Assembly: GCF_024806835.1 (NCBI RefSeq)
Contig: NZ_JANTYU010000001.1
Span: forward strand, 930,001 to 994,000
Length of the DNA: 64,000 nucleotides
From: Xanthomonas sp. 3793
GTDB lineage: Bacteria > Pseudomonadota > Gammaproteobacteria > Xanthomonadales > Xanthomonadaceae
Reading direction: 5' to 3'
The stretch's first letter is position 1. Each line of letters begins with the position of its first letter. Shown one piece after another: positions 43,062 to 49,661 of the stretch. Below the pieces are notes generated by a model, which made no database searches, was not told the DNA's origin, and was given only the letters and a program-made list of their open reading frames with translations. The position numbers were made by a program, and so were the translations under genes.

Positions 43062-44081
43062 TCAGCGATCAACAGACACGCGCCACTGGCCGTCTGCCAT
43101 CGGCAGCCAGGTGATCTCCACCGGCAGGAACTTCTCGATCAGCCGGGCGTTGCTCGCCAGATGCTCACTGATGGCATCGGTGGTGAACCCGCCACCGCCG
43201 GCCAGCGCCATCGGCAGCAACAACTGGTCCGACAGATACTCGCCAACGCAGGCGCCAGCATCGAGATACCGCTGCACCTGATCGGCAAGGCGCTCGCCCA
43301 CCTGCTCGGCGGCCACACCGCGCTCGCCGTAGCCGGCAAAGGTCTCGACATGCGCTGCATGGCGCACATGCACAAGCGCGACGTTGCCCGGCCCCAACGC
43401 AGGACGCACGCTCTCCACATGGCGCGGGCTGGGGTCCACGCCCAGACGTGCAGCCAACACGCGTAACTCGCGATGCCCGATCTTGGTCGACAACCCGGAG
43501 ATCAGGATCGTCGCCTCGATCGACTCCAACGTCCCGCGTGCATCGAACACGGCACGCTGGAGCTGCGCACAAGGCTCCACCGCCACCTGCAGCACTCCGC
43601 CGCCGGCCGGATAAAAGCCATGCCGCTCCAGTACCGCCGACACGCGCACGCCCATCCGCTGCAAGGCAGGCAGATAGCAGTTGGCGATGAAATCGGCACT
43701 CGGCGCCAACGGATTGTGCGTCCCGCCTTCGAACGTCAGGCTCGAAGGTGCCGCCGCCTGCCAAAGCGCAGGCAGCACAGTCTGCAACACCAAGGTGGCA
43801 GAGCCCGCACTTCCGGTCGCGAAGCGATATGTCCCCGGCAACACCTGGCCCGGCTCGAACCGCAACGCCGTCGCACCGATCTGCGCACCATGCGTACGCG
43901 CCTGCCCAATCGCCGCCGCCGCATTGACGGCCGTCAGGTGCTGACGCATCAAACCCGGGCGTGAACGCGCTCCGCGGATATTGTGCATGACAAAGCCGGT
44001 CCCGGTGCACAGGCTCAACGTCAATGCGGTGCGCAACAACTGTCCACCGCCTGCCGCTCCATCGATTTCAATCATGTCCAT
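43062..44081 (-). CDS. rtcA: RNA 3'-terminal phosphate cyclase
   Basis: A 339-residue enzyme that turns RNA 3'-phosphate ends into 2',3'-cyclic phosphates using ATP. Family motifs: IEIDGAAGGGQLLRTALTLS at the start, IRGARSRPGLMRQHLTAV, and near the end ISEHLASNARLIEKFLP, which carries the adenylated His (His307 with this start). Several in-frame ATGs lie close together (44090, 44081, 44075). Last gene of the rsr-Y RNA-rtcBA operon, 184 bp after rtcB. Confidence 0.94.
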   Translation of the reverse strand: MDMIEIDGAAGGGQLLRTALTLSLCTGTGFVMHNIRGARSRPGLMRQHLTAVNAAAAIGQARTHGAQIGATALRFEPGQVLPGTYRFATGSAGSATLVLQTVLPALWQAAAPSSLTFEGGTHNPLAPSADFIANCYLPALQRMGVRVSAVLERHGFYPAGGGVLQVAVEPCAQLQRAVFDARGTLESIEATILISGLSTKIGHRELRVLAARLGVDPSPRHVESVRPALGPGNVALVHVRHAAHVETFAGYGERGVAAEQVGERLADQVQRYLDAGACVGEYLSDQLLLPMALAGGGGFTTDAISEHLASNARLIEKFLPVEITWLPMADGQWRVSVDR

Positions 44082-44265
44082 GACGCACATCCATTCAAAT
44101 AAACGCCCCGATGCCCAGATCGGGGCTGTCAATGCCATGCCGGCGCAGTGTAGTTGGATCCAATGCCCAGGCGGCGCCCGCTGGTTGCACCTGCGCTGCA
44201 GCGGTGTCCGATGCCGCAGCGTCGACGCAACGCATCGCTAGCGCTGCGGAAACCAATGCGCAGGC

Positions 44266-45486
44266 CTATCCCTTGACGCATACCACCTGCCGAAGCGTAT
44301 GCACGATTTCCACCAGGTCGCGCTGTGCATGCATCACCGCCTCGATCGGCTTGTACGCCGCGGGCGACTCGTCCACCACGTCCTGATCCTTGCGGCATTC
44401 CACATGCGCCGTGGCCTTGATGTGGTCGTCGAGGCTGATGCGCCGCTTGGCCTCGGTGCGGCTCATGACCCGTCCAGCACCATGGCTGCAGCTATGGAAG
44501 CTGTCGGCATTGCCGAGTCCGCGCACGATGAAACTCTTGGCGCCCATGCTGCCGGGAATGATGCCCAGCTCGCCCTTGCGGGCACTCACCGCACCCTTGC
44601 GCGTCACGAACACGTCCTTGCCGAAGTGGTGCTCGCGGCTGACGTAGTTGTGGTGACAGTTCACCGCCTCCGCCTGCGCCTCGAACGGCTTGGCGATGAC
44701 AGTGCGCACGGCCGCCACCACGTGACGCATCATGATTTCCCGATTGATCCGCGCATAGCGTTGCGCCCAGTCCACTGCAAACACGTAGTCGGCATAGTGC
44801 TCGCTGCCTTCCGGCAGGTAGGCCAGGTCCTGGTCCGGCAGGTTGATCATCCAGCGCCGCATCTCGTTCTTGGCCAGCTGGATGAAATGGTTGCCGATCG
44901 CATTGCCGACGCCGCGCGATCCGGAGTGCAGCATGAACCATACGCGCTGCGCCTCATCCAGGCAGACCTCAACAAAATGGTTGCCGGTTCCCAACGTTCC
45001 CAGGTGCTGCAGGTTATTGGTCTTGTGCAACCGCGGATGGCGCTCGCAGATCAACGCAAAATCGCTCGCCAGCTGCGACCAGCCATCGATCGCATGCCCC
45101 GGCGGGGTCTGCCATGCCCCCTTGTCGCGCGCACCCGGCGTGCGCCCATGCGGCACCGCGCGCTCGATCGCGCTGCGGATCGCGGCCAGGTTGTCCGGCA
45201 GGTCGCTGGCCACCAACGTGGTGCGCGCGGCGATCATGCCGCACCCGATATCCACGCCGACTGCGGCAGGCACGATCGCACCGATGGTCGGCACCACCGA
45301 CCCCACCGTGGCTCCCTTGCCCAAATGCACGTCGGGCATGACCGCGATCCAGCGGTGGATGAAAGGCAGCTTGGCGATGTTCTGCAACTGCTGGCGCGCT
45401 TCGTCCTCAAGCGGAACGCCGCGCGTCCACAGCTTGATGGGGGCCGCACCCGGCTGGGCAATCACATCGTAGTGTAGGTCGCTCAT
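44266..45486 (-). CDS. rtcB: RNA-splicing ligase RtcB
   Basis: A 406-residue GTP- and Mn-dependent ligase that joins 2',3'-cyclic-phosphate and 5'-OH RNA ends. Metal-binding GVDIGCGM (Asp79, Cys82), the GTGNHFVEV and LHSGSRGVGN segments, and the guanylated His335 in SCSHGAGR are all present. AAGGAG precedes the ATG at 45486. The gene starts 34 bp after the last Y-RNA-like module, so ligase and noncoding RNAs are in one transcription unit under RtcR. Confidence 0.96.
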   Translation of the reverse strand: MSDLHYDVIAQPGAAPIKLWTRGVPLEDEARQQLQNIAKLPFIHRWIAVMPDVHLGKGATVGSVVPTIGAIVPAAVGVDIGCGMIAARTTLVASDLPDNLAAIRSAIERAVPHGRTPGARDKGAWQTPPGHAIDGWSQLASDFALICERHPRLHKTNNLQHLGTLGTGNHFVEVCLDEAQRVWFMLHSGSRGVGNAIGNHFIQLAKNEMRRWMINLPDQDLAYLPEGSEHYADYVFAVDWAQRYARINREIMMRHVVAAVRTVIAKPFEAQAEAVNCHHNYVSREHHFGKDVFVTRKGAVSARKGELGIIPGSMGAKSFIVRGLGNADSFHSCSHGAGRVMSRTEAKRRISLDDHIKATAHVECRKDQDVVDESPAAYKPIEAVMHAQRDLVEIVHTLRQVVCVKG

Positions 45487-45520
45487 TGAAAGACTCCTTG
45501 CAACAAAACAATGAAAAGGC

Positions 45521-45630
45521 GCGGTGACAAAGTGGCGGAACAGACTGCAGTGCGACAGCCGCCGCATTGCACTGGGATTTGAACCCACCCATTGAAGGGA
45601 CACCGATGTAGTTCCAACCGCATTCACCGC
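45521..45630 (-). ncRNA. Y-RNA-like module 4 (T-arm type, no D-arm)
   Basis: About 110 nt. Long-range stem: 5' GCGGTGA with 3' TCACCGC, an internal loop containing ATGC opposite a TTTG-type strand, then 5' GGAAC with 3' GTTCC. The loop holds a T-arm (TGGG-TTCAAAT-CCCA, 45573-45587) followed by a hairpin CAGTGC/GCACTG (45548-45574). There is no GG-containing D-arm. The 5' half is near-identical to module 3 (GGTGAATGC, GGAACTACATCG, CCCTTCA.TGGG). A T-rich run follows the 3' strand. Ends are estimated from pairing. Confidence 0.7.
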
Positions 45631-45786
45631 AAAGAACGGCATCCCGCGGGCGAGCCGCAGAATGCTTTGACGCAAGACCATCGCCCACCCGAGGCAGGCG
45701 CTGGAGCCCGCCAGCGAACCCAGCAGCGAGGCAACGGACCGAAGGCCGATGCGCACGCGTCATAAGCGGCGATGACGGAAAAAAGC

Positions 45787-45904
45787 GCGGTGACAAAAGT
45801 GATGGAATGCTCTGCGTGGCGGCGGCCGGAGCCGCAGCAACGCAGTCGGGATTTGAACCCAACCCAATGAAGGGGATCGATGTAGTTCCACCGGCATTCA
45901 CCGC
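45787..45904 (-). ncRNA. Y-RNA-like module 3 (T-arm type, no D-arm)
   Basis: About 118 nt. Outer stem GCGGTGA/TCACCGC, internal loop (ATGCC opposite TTTTG) and inner stem GGTGGAA/TTCCATC. Inside lie a T-arm (TTGGG-TTCAAAT-CCCGA, 45846-45862) and a long GC-rich hairpin CTGCGT/ACGCAG (45812-45845). No D-arm follows. The 3' strand ends CCGCGC then six Ts, which could stop transcription or mark the RNA end. Related to module 4 by recent duplication. Confidence 0.72.
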
Positions 45905-45916
45905 AAAACCAAGCCA

Positions 45917-46028
45917 CGCTGCCTGCGACAAGATCAATGAAACGCGCGCTCTACCACTGAGCTACCGTCATGACGGGCGGGATTCGAACCCGCGACCATG
46001 GAGTTTCACTTGCATTCGCACGACAACG
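45917..46028 (-). ncRNA. Y-RNA-like module 2 with complete permuted tRNA mimic (YrlA-like)
   Basis: About 112 nt. Outer stem 5' CGTTGTCGTGCGA / 3' TCGCAGGCAGCG with one bulge, an internal loop (AATGC opposite TTG), then inner stem AGTGAAAC/GTTTCATT. Within, in order: T-arm GCGGG-TTCGAAT-CCCGC (45977-45993), acceptor-like palindrome CCGTCATGACGG (45965-45976), TA, then D-arm GCTC-AGTGGTA-GAGC (45948-45962). The order T-arm, acceptor, D-arm is a circular permutation of tRNA, as known for bacterial YrlA RNAs that dock on Ro60 proteins. Confidence 0.82.
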
Positions 46029-46039
46029 CAGACAACAAG

Positions 46040-46183
46040 ACCGACGGCGACCACGACAACGGAGATGAAACATCCTGCTCTAACCAGCTGAGCTACCACC
46101 CCACACAGGGTGGGCGGGACTCGAACCCGCGACCTGGAGCGTAAGAGGCTGTAGTTTCATCGGCATTCGTGACCGCCGACGGT
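46040..46183 (-). ncRNA. Y-RNA-like module 1 with complete permuted tRNA mimic (YrlA-like)
   Basis: About 144 nt, the first full module after rsr. Outer stem 5' GGCGGTCACGA / 3' TCGTGGTCGCC pairs over 11 bp with two G-U pairs and extends further with one mismatch. The internal loop has ATGCC opposite TCCGTTG, and the inner stem GATGAAAC/GTTTCATC is perfect. Inside: T-arm GCGGG-TTCGAGT-CCCGC (46114-46130), acceptor-like hairpin CCACCC/GGGTGG (46096-46113), TA, D-arm GCTC-AGCTGGTTA-GAGC (46077-46093). CGAATGC on the 5' strand and TTGTCG on the 3' strand are shared with module 2 and fit a Ro60-binding helix. Confidence 0.83.
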
Positions 46184-46193
46184 GAAACCTGTA

Positions 46194-46267
46194 GGTGGCA
46201 ACCAGACCATGGCACTGCTGCCAGGTCAGTCGCTACCGCTTAATCACCACATGGCATTTCTGCCACC
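46194..46267 (-). other. 74-nt segment closed by a perfect 7-bp inverted repeat
   Basis: Ends GGTGGCA and TGCCACC pair perfectly and enclose 60 nt, the size of a tRNA. On the minus strand the interior has a hairpin GACC-TGGCA/TGCCA-GGTC with one bulge and a GGTAG-containing loop, but no TTC T-loop. It lies between rsr and Y module 1. It could be a degenerate further module or a processing signal. Confidence 0.45.
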
Positions 46268-46313
46268 ACCCGGCGGGCCCCATTGCCCGCCGGGTCTGCA
46301 CACGTCCGTGTGC
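46268..46313 (-). other. Two strong hairpins just after the rsr stop codon
   Basis: 46268-46295 has perfect 11-bp arms ACCCGGCGGGC/GCCCGCCGGGT with a 6-nt loop. 46298-46313 has 6-bp arms GCACAC/GTGTGC with a 4-nt loop. Neither is followed by a T tract, so they look like RNA stability or processing elements protecting the rsr message, rather than terminators. Confidence 0.6.
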
Positions 46314-47864
46314 TCACAGCTCGATCGAGCCGATCCGCTCGACCCAGCGCGTCGCACCTGCACCCTGCGCTGCGAACGTCGCGATCAGGTCGAACACCGC
46401 ATCGCTGAAACCGCCGACATGCAGGATGTCGTCGCGCTCCAGCGTCTGGCTGGTCGCGACCGGCTGCAGGTCGATGCACACCATGCGGGCCTGCGGACAA
46501 CGCGCCTTCAACCGCGTCCATTCCTGCATGGTTGCCGTTGCTACACCACTGCGGGTATCGCGCCAGCTCTCGTTATCCGACACCATCACCAGCACATCCA
46601 CCTGGGCCCGCATCGCATTCAAGTGCGCCAGCGGCGCACTGATGCTGGTGCCGCCCCCGCATTGCGCCGCCAACTGCTGCGCCTGGGCGAGCACGCTGTC
46701 GCGTGGATTCAGCCGCAGCGAACGCACCTGCGTATCGAATGGCAGCACCGCGGCTTGCGGGTTCGTACGCTGCATGCACGCGGCAATCAACGCCGCCACA
46801 TCCACGCAACGCACGCTGGTGGTCGCCCCCTTGCGGTAGCCGGTGACCGGCGATGCCATCGATCCTGAGACATCGACCGCCACCACCACCTTGCCCTCCA
46901 GCACCGGCACCTGCCGGGTCGCGATCTCCATCGCGTCCTGCAATGCCCCACCGATCTGCGGGGGCAAGCCGCTAGCCGCGGTATAGGCCATCTGCAATTG
47001 ATAAGGAAACACGCGGGCACGCTGGATCTGCTCCGGATCACGCAGACGCGCAGCCAGCTTGGCCACCATTGCCGCATCGGCAAACACACCATGACGCGCA
47101 AACGTGTTGAGGTTCAACCGCAACGTCTGCCACGACACCCGCTCCGCCAGCAGCGCCCAGTGCGCCCGGGTTAACGGCAATGCCGTGTAGTACTGGAACG
47201 GCAGATCCGGCAACGTCTCGCCCGGTGCACGCTTGAACGCCTCGTACGCCTGCAGCACGGCCGGCAATGCGGTTTCCTGGTAGGGCTTGCCGATGACCCA
47301 CGCATACAGGGCCTCGCGCTCGGCATCGGCCGGCTTCGGGTGCACCATGCGGATCACGTCTGCCAGCGACGGCTGCTGCCCGATCGCCGCCTGCACGATG
47401 GTGGCCACCGACGCCTGCTGCAACCACTGCCGCACCATGCGCTTGGGCAGCGAACCCAGCGACTTGCGCCCGACCTGGCCACTGCGCACGATCTGCACGA
47501 AGTTGCGCAATAGCCGGCCGTTGTCGACCACGCGGGGAAACGCACGGGCAAAGACCTCAGCGTCGCGGGTGGTCAACGTCGCCAGCAACAATGCCGGCAT
47601 GTCCTTCATGTGCGCTACCTGACGGGCATAGATCGCGGTCTGCGCAACGAATGCCGGCGGAACCTGTTCGCACAAGGTCAGCACCTGCTGCAACTGCGCG
47701 TCGGCGCTCGCATAGTAGGTGCCGTTGAAGCAGCCGGTGGCCGCATACAACGCCAGCGCACCACGCGGCGTGCGCTCGTAGGCGCAACCGCCGGCCTCGT
47801 TTCGCGCAGTCGCCTTGGTCCGCAACGCGCCACGCAGCGAGGAGAAGAGTTGAAGATTGGCCAT
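46314..47864 (-). CDS. rsr: Rsr, bacterial Ro60 orthologue (TROVE plus vWA domains)
   Basis: A 516-residue ring protein that binds Y RNAs and misfolded RNA 3' ends and, in other bacteria, links Y RNA to exonucleases. The HEAT-like TROVE ring spans about residues 1-320 (YYASADAQLQQVLTLCEQVP, ARAFPRVVDNGRLLRNFVQIVRS). A von Willebrand A domain follows with a complete MIDAS start DVSGS (331-335), GGGTSISAPL and MVSDNES. CAGGAG precedes ATG 47864. First gene of the RtcR-controlled operon. Confidence 0.95.
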   Translation of the reverse strand: MANLQLFSSLRGALRTKATARNEAGGCAYERTPRGALALYAATGCFNGTYYASADAQLQQVLTLCEQVPPAFVAQTAIYARQVAHMKDMPALLLATLTTRDAEVFARAFPRVVDNGRLLRNFVQIVRSGQVGRKSLGSLPKRMVRQWLQQASVATIVQAAIGQQPSLADVIRMVHPKPADAEREALYAWVIGKPYQETALPAVLQAYEAFKRAPGETLPDLPFQYYTALPLTRAHWALLAERVSWQTLRLNLNTFARHGVFADAAMVAKLAARLRDPEQIQRARVFPYQLQMAYTAASGLPPQIGGALQDAMEIATRQVPVLEGKVVVAVDVSGSMASPVTGYRKGATTSVRCVDVAALIAACMQRTNPQAAVLPFDTQVRSLRLNPRDSVLAQAQQLAAQCGGGTSISAPLAHLNAMRAQVDVLVMVSDNESWRDTRSGVATATMQEWTRLKARCPQARMVCIDLQPVATSQTLERDDILHVGGFSDAVFDLIATFAAQGAGATRWVERIGSIEL

Positions 47865-47913
47865 GTCAGGCTCCTGGCGGGAACTGCCCGCAGTGGGTGA
47901 TGAGCCCTGTACA

Positions 47914-47928
47914 GCAATGCGCGTGCCA
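47914..47928 (-). promoter_or_regulatory. Sigma-54 (-24/-12) promoter of the rsr-rtcBA operon
   Basis: Minus strand reads TGGCACGCGCATTGC, an exact match to TGGCAC-N5-TTGC, 50 bp before the rsr start codon. RtcR, a sigma-54 activator, is encoded immediately upstream on the opposite strand. The intergenic stretch from 47940 to 48025 is unusually A/T-rich, suiting DNA bending between activator sites and promoter. Confidence 0.88.
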
Positions 47929-48017
47929 ACTTTGGTCATTAGTTCATAAGCCACTGTTTCATAAAAGATTATTTTTATTTTGATGGCACGGCCCTACAGC
48001 GTATTTTCTGTTTTTCG

Positions 48018-48050: not shown

Positions 48051-49661
48051 ATGGACAGGACCAAGGTCATTTTCGGCATGCTCGGCGTGCAGCTGGATGC
48101 CGGCACCGGGCCGGGCCGCTGGGAAAAATGGCGCCCCACGGTGTCGCTGGGCATGCATGACGACTTTCTGGTCGGCCGCATCGAACTGCTCGCCGATGCA
48201 CGCCGCCATGCAAGATTGGCGAGTGTCGTCCGCAACGATCTTGCCCAGGTGTCGCCAGACACCCAGGTGCAGCAGCACGACACCTACCTGGCCGACCCTT
48301 GGGACTTCGAGGGCGTTTACGCCACCCTGCACGACTTCTTCGCCAGCTATACGTTTGCGCCGGAAGAAGAGGACTACTACCTGCACATCACCACCGGCAG
48401 CCACGTCAGCCAGATTTGCTGCTTCCTGCTGACCGAGAGCCGGCACTTCCCCGGCCGGCTGCTGCAGACCTCACCGCCTCGCAAGCAAGGCAGCGGCGAG
48501 GCGGGCAGCTATGCGGTGATCGATCTAGACCTCTCCCGCTACGACCGCATTGCGCAGCGTTTCGCGCAACAGCAGATGCAGGACCGCGCCCTGCTCAAAA
48601 ACGGCATCGCCACGCGCAACCTCGCGTTCAACCGGATGATCGAGCAAATCGAGACGGTGGCCACGCGCTCCAGGGCGCCGATGCTGCTGATGGGACCCAC
48701 TGGCGCCGGCAAGAGCCAGCTGGCCAAGCGCGTGTTCGAGCTGAAAAAACTCAAGCACCAGCTGGGCGGACGCTTCGTGGAGGTGAACTGCGCCACGCTG
48801 CGCGGCGACGGCGCCATGAGCGCCCTGTTCGGCCACACCAAGGGCGCCTATACCGGGGCGATCAGCGATCGCCCCGGACTGTTGCGATCCGCCCACCAGG
48901 GGCTGCTGTTCCTGGACGAAATCGGCGAACTCGGGCTCGACGAACAGGCCATGCTGTTGCGCGCCCTGGAGGAGAAGCGCTTTTTGCCGGTCGGCAGCGA
49001 CAAGGAGGTGGACAGCGAGTTTCAACTGATCGCCGGGACCAACCGCGACCTGCAGCAGCAGGTACTGCAAGGGCGCTTCCGCGACGACCTGCTGGCACGC
49101 CTTAATCTGTGGACCTACCGCTTGCCTGGACTGGCCGAGCGCATGGAGGACATCGAGCCGAACATCGATTTCGAACTGGAGCGGTGGTCGCGCGAACAAC
49201 ATCAGCGGGTCGCCTTCAACCGCGAGGCGCGTGCGCGCTACCTGGCCTTTGCGACCAGCACAGAGGCGCGCTGGAACGGCAACTTTCGCGACCTCAGCGC
49301 CTCGGTCATGCGCCTGGCGACACTGGCCAATGCCGGCCGTATCCAAAGCGAACTGGTGGAAGAAGAAATCATCCGCCTGCGCCAGCAGTGGAAGGGCGCC
49401 CACGCGACGTCGCCGCTGGAGGCCTTGCTGGGCGATGGCGTGGAACAGCTGGATCGCTTCGATCGCGTGCAACTGGAAGACGTGGTGCGCCTGTGTGCGC
49501 GCAGCAAGTCGCTATCGCAGGCTGGCCGCGAGCTGTTCGCGGTCTCGCGCGGACAGCGCGCCAGCACCAATGACGCCGATCGCCTGCGCAAGTATCTGGC
49601 GCGCTTCGGCCTGGACTGGGAACAGGTGCGAACGAGCCCAGACACCACAGCGCAACCCTGA
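48051..49661 (+). CDS. rtcR: RtcR, sigma-54-dependent activator of the RNA repair operon
   Basis: A 536-residue bacterial enhancer-binding protein. The N-terminal 180 residues form a CARF-like sensor (VIFGMLGVQLDAG; DYYLHITTGSHVSQICCFLL) thought to sense RNA ends. The AAA+ domain has Walker A GPTGAGKS (215-222), GAYTGA (265-270, the sigma-54 contact loop, usually GAFTGA) and Walker B LLFLDE (285-290). The C-terminal helix-turn-helix is around SKSLSQAGRELFAVSRGQ. It is divergent from rsr and its stop overlaps a hairpin. Confidence 0.95.
   Translation: MDRTKVIFGMLGVQLDAGTGPGRWEKWRPTVSLGMHDDFLVGRIELLADARRHARLASVVRNDLAQVSPDTQVQQHDTYLADPWDFEGVYATLHDFFASYTFAPEEEDYYLHITTGSHVSQICCFLLTESRHFPGRLLQTSPPRKQGSGEAGSYAVIDLDLSRYDRIAQRFAQQQMQDRALLKNGIATRNLAFNRMIEQIETVATRSRAPMLLMGPTGAGKSQLAKRVFELKKLKHQLGGRFVEVNCATLRGDGAMSALFGHTKGAYTGAISDRPGLLRSAHQGLLFLDEIGELGLDEQAMLLRALEEKRFLPVGSDKEVDSEFQLIAGTNRDLQQQVLQGRFRDDLLARLNLWTYRLPGLAERMEDIEPNIDFELERWSREQHQRVAFNREARARYLAFATSTEARWNGNFRDLSASVMRLATLANAGRIQSELVEEEIIRLRQQWKGAHATSPLEALLGDGVEQLDRFDRVQLEDVVRLCARSKSLSQAGRELFAVSRGQRASTNDADRLRKYLARFGLDWEQVRTSPDTTAQP

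Follow-up and report, generated by a model that had tools for sequence, protein, structure and literature searches.

Four Y RNAs with three kinds of head, one predicted to be a permuted tRNA, in a predicted RNA-repair operon of Xanthomonas sp. 3793

Introduction

Which RNAs are encoded between rsr and rtcB in Xanthomonas sp. 3793, and what could they contribute to an operon that otherwise specifies a Ro60 orthologue and RNA-repair enzymes? A sequence-only reading had placed four tandem Y RNA-like modules in this gap. In this study, we analysed a 64-kb stretch of contig NZ_JANTYU010000001.1 (assembly GCF_024806835.1), hereafter the window, to whose numbering all coordinates refer unless another contig is named, and compared its array with those of other rsr loci.

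The operon and its promoter

Pfam searches revealed that the minus strand carries rsr, the four modules, rtcB and rtcA in that order, with rtcR divergent. The Ro60 orthologue gene rsr (46314..47864, minus strand) matched vWA_Ro60 (65.5 bits) and TROVE (26.6 bits), both scored on a longer ORF. The RNA ligase gene rtcB (44266..45483, minus strand) matched RtcB (424 bits), the RNA 3'-phosphate cyclase gene rtcA (43062..44138, minus strand) matched RTC (241 bits), and rtcR (48051..49661, plus strand), which encodes a CARF-type sigma54 activator, matched RtcR (254 bits) and Sigma54_activat (163 bits). Upstream of the likely rsr start lies a putative sigma54 promoter of the form TGGCAC-N5-TTGCT (TGGCACGCGCATTGCT; 47913..47928, minus strand). 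It is the sole zero-mismatch match in the window, in which matches with up to two mismatches numbered 46 against 48.8 expected by chance. Because this promoter falls within the listed rsr ORF, which begins at 47954, the start was shifted by eye to the ATG at 47864, behind the promoter. With its divergent rtcR, sigma54 promoter, rtcB and rtcA, the locus is predicted to be an RNA-repair operon of the RtcR/sigma54 type, composed of rsr, four Y RNAs, rtcB and rtcA.

The same gene order is annotated in Xanthomonas sacchari (gltX, a repressor gene, rtcR, the vWA gene corresponding to rsr, an 804-base gap in which no gene is listed, rtcB and rtcA). A search of whole genomes with the Pfam TROVE profile gave no match in 35 genomes; since it failed even on the window's own genome, the Rsr protein itself was used as the query. 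Rsr was then found in one of the 35 genomes of the genus, namely the window's own, and in 27 of 397 genomes of the order, so the operon is patchy. As a separate observation, a gene annotated as RNA ligase adjoins rtcR on a Rhizobium plasmid.

Four modules in the gap

The rsr-rtcB gap indeed contains four minus-strand modules, as the sequence-only reading had claimed: M1 (46045..46178), M2 (45922..46022), M3 (45786..45905) and M4 (45520..45631), the limits being stem-finder positions in the gap converted to window coordinates. The pairings quoted in that reading are present (GGCGGTCACGA with TCGTGGTCGCC, and GATGAAAC with GTTTCATC), and the GAATGC strand that it saw facing TTGTC belongs to a bipartite Ro60-type stem found in all four modules, with an outer helix ending GA/UC, an AUGC bulge, an inner helix and an opposing UUG strand. 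On the minus strand of the window the four modules ranked top in the stem finder (17.8, 12.9, 11.7 and 11.5); two further sites, both on the plus strand, scored 14.6 and 12.4, so the finder alone is not specific.

Two of the checks that the reading had proposed divided the modules. With the Rfam YrlA model (RF02553), whose gathering score is 69 bits, only M2 passed the cut-off (70.5 bits), and M1 (65.2 bits), M3 (25.1 bits) and M4 (24.2 bits) fell below it. Folding against dinucleotide shuffles, computed on stretches a few bases longer than the modules, gave z-scores of -3.93 for M1, -4.08 for M3 and -2.42 for M4, whereas the folding energy of M2 alone was not significant (-0.65). The YrlB model (RF02565) had no match in 44500-47500 up to E = 5, its positive control on the enterobacterial-type contig L215 scoring 105.5 bits. 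The 154-nt spacer between M3 and M4 (45632-45785) holds no module, and 45634-45783 within it has no notable fold (z -0.58). At 45969-46102 an Rfam tRNA match of 30 bits takes its D arm from M1 and its T arm from M2, the two being separated by 77 positions; it is a by-product of the array order.

The modules are thus encoded beside a Ro60 orthologue gene (Pfam vWA_Ro60) and all carry the conserved bipartite Ro60-binding stem. Together with the score of M2 and the strong covariation described below, this bears out the earlier placement of Y RNAs between rsr and rtcB. What that reading overlooked is that the four modules differ in kind, that M1 has an anticodon arm and that M3 and M4 form a separate head class. 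The array has three kinds of head (M1; M2; M3 and M4), and the proposal that each module closes a tRNA-like loop holds for M1 and M2 only, since M3 and M4 keep a T arm without a D arm.

A permuted tRNA cloverleaf in M1

First, we found that M1, aligned with Rfam YrlA, has a 13-nt insert (agccucuuacgcu) that completes a tRNA cloverleaf. The anticodon arm (AGC-CUCUUAC-GCUCC, tRNA positions 29-43; 46136..46150, minus strand) consists of 2 + 3 bp and a 7-nt loop, CUCUUAC, that holds the triplet CUU (46143-46145, minus strand). The GG that follows the D arm (tRNA positions 27-28; 46074..46075, minus strand) pairs with CC 42-43 on the far side of the inserted Ro60 stem and, together with AGC, pairs GCUCC at 5/5 positions. 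After the anticodon arm come a 5-nt variable loop, the T arm (GCGGG-UUCGAGU-CCCGC; 46114..46130, minus strand; covariation helix 5), an acceptor-stem mimic of 7 bp (46096..46113, minus strand) closed by GUGU, and the D arm (GCUC-AGCUGGUUA-GAGC; 46077..46093, minus strand; covariation helix 7, nearly invariant), both T and D arms being placed by the Rfam alignment. The head of M1 is therefore predicted to be a circularly permuted version of the complete tRNA cloverleaf, in which the Ro60 stem interrupts the 5' strand of the anticodon stem between positions 28 and 29. The proposed fold lies 5.1 kcal/mol above the computed minimum.

M1 differs from a tRNA gene, which has the ordinary order and a free 3' end: its acceptor is closed by GUGU and no 3' end is free. 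ARAGORN called no tRNA in the window. When the heads of relatives were un-permuted, it called 57 of 57 as tRNA, but still 40-53 of 57 when the anticodon arm was shuffled, so these calls support the fold weakly and we relied on the fixed-geometry pairing test given below. Two suppositions were dropped. That all heads are devoid of an anticodon loop, as the YrlA literature had led us to suppose at first, was rejected on the insert of M1. That M1 mimics tRNA-Lys, as the triplet CUU suggested, was abandoned after a comparison of host tRNAs with 22 modules, drawn from selected loci, in which the M1 body with its triplet masked came nearest to host tRNA-Asp (58 identities in 73 nt). With a body nearest to tRNA-Asp and a triplet suggesting Lys, M1 is not a copy of one tRNA.

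T-arm-only heads in M3 and M4

Second, a closed D arm after the T arm and acceptor hairpin, by which YrlA is recognised, is present in M1 and M2 and absent from M3 and M4, and the latter two were therefore not filed as YrlA. M2 is of YrlA type and has no room for an anticodon arm. M3 has a long distal hairpin and shows 80% similarity to M4 across 60 nt; M4 keeps a D-loop-like GG before the T arm where M3 has GA. A module matching them is the last before rtcB in several relatives. We are close to certain of the anatomy of the modules and heads as described here.

In the elbow of tRNA, the GG of the D loop meets the T loop. Among relatives, a GG at nucleotides 6-16 was found in 57 of 72 heads filed as T-arm-only against 2 of 29 filed as mini heads without a T arm, an approximate figure since the former group holds misfiled heads. 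The combination of GG and T arm in heads of the M3/M4 type fits a mimic of the tRNA elbow.

Arrays at other rsr loci

We examined 72 rsr loci, taking the gap up to the following rtcB-like gene or, failing that, the 1500 bases that follow rsr. The stem finder returned 220 modules from 59,139 bases of gap and 108 from 1,341,593 bases of background, a density about 46 times higher in the gaps; an earlier version of it, run on the first 38 loci, had found 106 modules, where five shuffles gave 0-3. At least two modules occurred in 63 of the 72 loci and at least four in 26, with a maximum of seven, although the finder misses some modules (the third YrlA in L043 was detected by Rfam only). An array of four is thus ordinary, not exceptional, and to call it an expanded set, as the sequence-only reading did, is misleading. 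L043 and the X. sacchari locus (L216) have four modules each, namely two of anticodon type, one plain YrlA and one T-arm-only, as judged from Rfam matches with the heads assessed by eye; the window has one of anticodon type, one plain YrlA and two T-arm-only.

Arrays of three occur on two contigs that have the enterobacterial YrlB and YrlA: on L215 (924-1037) and L220 (1077-1190), short enterobacterial-type contigs filed as phage, a third Y RNA-like module follows YrlB and YrlA. Rsr matches were found in 347 phage records and in 11 viral contigs, of which Mx1 and the 11 contigs were scanned from 800 bases before to 1300 bases after rsr; these 12 showed no array near rsr, only four long low-scoring matches. 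The gap of L064 contains a GAATGC-bearing unit of about 124 nt in tandem copies. Six loci (L010, L080, L083, L084, L086 and L217) have a distant form of the rtcB-like gene behind the array, with about 26-28% identity.

Head classes at these loci were assigned by simple rules, and some heads are misfiled: the T-arm-only group wrongly includes several heads that are D-loop-permuted and at least one of anticodon type (L044 1/3), some T-arm-only heads were filed as YrlA or as lacking a T arm, and some mini matches are partial matches within larger modules (L055 3/3, L056 1/2). Mini Y RNAs, with a Ro60 stem, no T arm and a head of at most 36 nt, made up 29 of the 220 modules by this rule, a few of them partial (examples are L045 1/4 and L065 1/2). 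Heads in L006, L007, L008, L011, L012, L083, L084 and L087 resemble tRNAs split in the D loop, in the order 3' half of the D arm, hairpin, T arm, acceptor and 5' half of the D arm. Eight such heads passed a strict script, with the loops GCAA, GCAG, CAAAA, UUCG, CUUGC, AUUU, CGAAAAA and UCCG; five of the eight have a tetraloop at the place of the anticodon loop. By eye, module 5/5 of L082 and module 7/7 of L084 are D-loop-permuted with a long variable arm and resemble tRNA-Leu.

The anticodon arm in relatives

The anticodon arm was tested in a fixed geometry, without selection on the pairing of the arm. The set comprised 97 modules in which a closed D arm comes after the T arm. Of these, 83 were scored, the other 14, M2 included, having no room for the arm. 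At a loop length of 7, 54 of the 83 paired at 5/5 positions, against a mean of 7.1 and a maximum of 13 modules in 500 shuffles of the 3' strand. Loop lengths of 4, 5, 6, 8, 9 and 10 gave 0, 0, 3, 1, 6 and 0 such modules (among 83, 83, 83, 73, 70 and 64 covered, respectively). In this geometry, 43 of the 97 modules have no full anticodon arm. In the 54, the frame of the loop was mostly kept, with Y32 in 53, U33 in 46 and R37 in 53, whereas U33 was seen in only 5 of the remaining 28 modules (the loop table took in 82 of the 83). U35 occurred in 40 of the 54, A36 in only 2 and A37-A38 in 28, and 17 different triplets were represented. At least one anticodon-type module was present in 44 of the 72 loci, and ten arrays had two.

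Covariation, a test that the sequence-only reading had named, was strong in relatives. Alignment A1 took in 51 of 57 anticodon-type modules, six long ones being left out. In it 97.2% of cells pair and 241 cells are changed on both sides, against a shuffled mean of 55.7. The 57 had been chosen for 5/5 pairing with some geometric freedom, so the A1 figures for the anticodon arm are circular; the acceptor stem played no part in the choice, and there 95.1% of cells pair and all 7 pairs show changes on both sides. Alignment A2 comprised 31 T-arm-only sequences chosen by eye; in it 97.9% of cells pair and 69 changes are both-sided against 21.0 in shuffles, mostly in the two Ro60 helices. Because the sequences are related, the shuffles overstate significance. 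The Ro60 helices show both-sided changes at 8 of 14 pairs in A1 and 9 of 13 in A2, stem pairing being also a criterion of the finder and the class of M2 itself lying outside both alignments.

The covariation also bears on whether the modules are separate RNAs. A hairpin with an AATGGG loop and an 11-bp stem lies between rsr and M1 (46268..46295, minus strand), and hairpins with this loop or AATAGG and a varying stem occur in 27 of the 72 loci, mostly between rsr and the first module and sometimes between modules. A cis-acting folded leader of rtcB, serving as a processing or attenuation signal, would agree with the presence of this conserved hairpin in the same unit and with the location of all modules between two coding genes of what appears to be a single transcription unit. 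However, the modules are repeated and self-contained, with Ro60 stems and tRNA-like covariation, and YrlA and YrlB are curated Rfam families of small RNAs, so we regard such a leader as highly improbable.

Finally, we compared positions within 423 close, non-independent pairs of modules. The mismatch rate was 0.74 at position 34, 0.33 at 35 and 0.64 at 36, whereas the group means were 0.00 for the D stem, 0.04 for the T stem, 0.08 for both T loop and variable loop, 0.25 for the acceptor, 0.27 for the anticodon stem and 0.30 for positions 32, 33, 37 and 38; positions 38 (0.56) and 59 (0.45) also vary much. The high rates at 34 and 36 beside a stable D stem, T stem and T loop indicate that the triplet moves and the frame stays. 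Such variation suits either changing targets or the neutral drift of a loop whose fold matters. In the latter case the arm might be a structural relic of a tRNA-derived head, kept for stability with a neutrally drifting triplet, which would account for the near saturation of positions 34 and 36, the nearly even base use at 34 (54 of the 57 anticodon-type modules entered the entropy calculation) and the mismatch between the triplet and body of M1. On the other hand, the counts of U33, R37, U35 and A36 given above, non-independent through kinship as they are, do not look like free drift of the whole loop, and we think a relic unlikely but by no means far-fetched.

Proposed function

The array RNAs are most likely Rsr-bound tRNA mimics. 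Rsr would bind and stabilise them via the stem, and the heads would dock proteins that normally recognise tRNA. The array would present tRNA surfaces on Rsr, with the M1 type adding the surface needed by anticodon nucleases. As described in PMC7790460, RtcR binds tRNA 5' fragments with a cyclic phosphate that arise from anticodon-loop cuts, and colicin D and VapC activate E. coli RtcR according to PMC9879122, which cites earlier work. Since such operons are known to be induced by tRNAs with a cleaved anticodon loop, the M1 type would most likely offer an expendable anticodon loop as a competitive target for anticodon nucleases, and RtcB and RtcA would mend the real tRNAs while it competes. A decoy role of the M1 type against anticodon-loop nucleases is plausible. 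The authors of PMC7790460 themselves suggested that YrlA might inhibit the nuclease competitively; by their own statement, their studies did not address the role of Y RNAs in RNA-repair operons.

Several observations count against this account: Salmonella YrlA was not cut by the nuclease studied in PMC7790460, the M1 fold is above the computed minimum, M1 does not reproduce any one tRNA, and the 43 modules noted above have no full arm. The high variation at positions 34 and 36, which also fits neutral drift, counts against decoying as well, as does that at positions 38 and 59, and decoying cannot account for the array as a whole, since M2-M4 are devoid of an anticodon loop. In four of the six Salmonella tRNAs mapped in PMC7790460, the main cut followed position 36 and separated two adenines, and fMet was cut after 37, again with adenines on both sides; compared with these sites, the rarity of A36 (2 of 54 modules), with A37-A38 present in 28, is only a hint. 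Taken as a whole, the anatomy, the Rsr-held tRNA mimics and the decoy step of the M1 type form our best explanation, which we hold tentatively, at somewhat less than an even chance. A broader proposal is that Ro60 arrays are diversified sets of tRNA decoys, in which a whole permuted tRNA is one common head type, its triplet changes fast under pressure from changing anticodon nucleases, and the repair enzymes of the same operon mend the true tRNAs; this seems to us rather unlikely.

Docking without decoying must also be weighed. Rsr, Y RNA and PNPase together form RYPER (PMC8394870), which is described for Deinococcus, and binding of PNPase by Rsr and YrlA is described for Salmonella (PMC8394870, PMC9879122). 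The heads might accordingly act as a tether or gate that holds the exonuclease on Rsr and chooses structured substrates, their tRNA likeness being only a docking surface. The T arm and GG do recur across head types, as expected of a common docking surface, but a tether leaves unexplained why 54 of the 97 modules have an anticodon arm, mostly with U33 and R37, while the triplet varies. We consider it doubtful as the full explanation; it and the relic arm are nevertheless real rivals to the decoy step. The heads might instead occupy tRNA-modifying enzymes such as TruB and DusA, among others, either retuning tRNA modification under stress or borrowing modifications for stability. This would fit the report of YrlA as a substrate of DusA and TruB (PMC8394870) and the position of the D stem, T stem and T loop as the least variable parts, but modification of the heads may be a by-product of the fold, and we judge it improbable.

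Under the preferred reading of the array as Rsr-held tRNA mimics, one array can hold several different mimics on a common Ro60 handle. In operons of a type that anticodon-loop cuts induce, a Y RNA with a full anticodon arm allows the competitor idea to be tested directly and at low cost.

Comparison with known systems

The Y RNA array itself is of a known kind. YrlA (RF02553), from the enterobacterial rsr-yrlBA-rtcBA arrangement, resembles M1 and M2 in its place, its Ro60 stem and the order T arm, acceptor, D arm; the arms of YrlA named in PMC8394870 are D, T and acceptor. M1 differs from it in the insert that completes an anticodon arm with a 7-nt loop, whereas the only possible arm in the enterobacterial-type YrlA of L215 has 4 bp and a 6-nt loop by eye, and M3 and M4 differ from it in having no D arm. 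The curated YrlA model is therefore without a part that is present in many heads. YrlB (RF02565) is likewise a short RNA with a Ro60 stem in the same place and resembles the mini modules of relatives; M3 and M4 are unlike it in their T-arm heads. Neither a Y RNA with a canonical anticodon arm nor a T-arm-only class is described in the available text of PMC7790460, PMC4726728, PMC8394870 and PMC9879122, the founding papers being outside this scope. The Deinococcus Y RNA and RYPER, taken here from a review's description alone, share with the array the pairing of a Ro60 orthologue with a Y RNA. Compared with tRNA, un-permuted M1 has an acceptor of 7 bp, a D stem of 4, an anticodon stem of 5 and a T stem of 5, together with U33, A37 and a 5-nt variable loop; it is unlike tRNA in being permuted, in having its acceptor end closed by a loop and in the Ro60 stem inserted into it.
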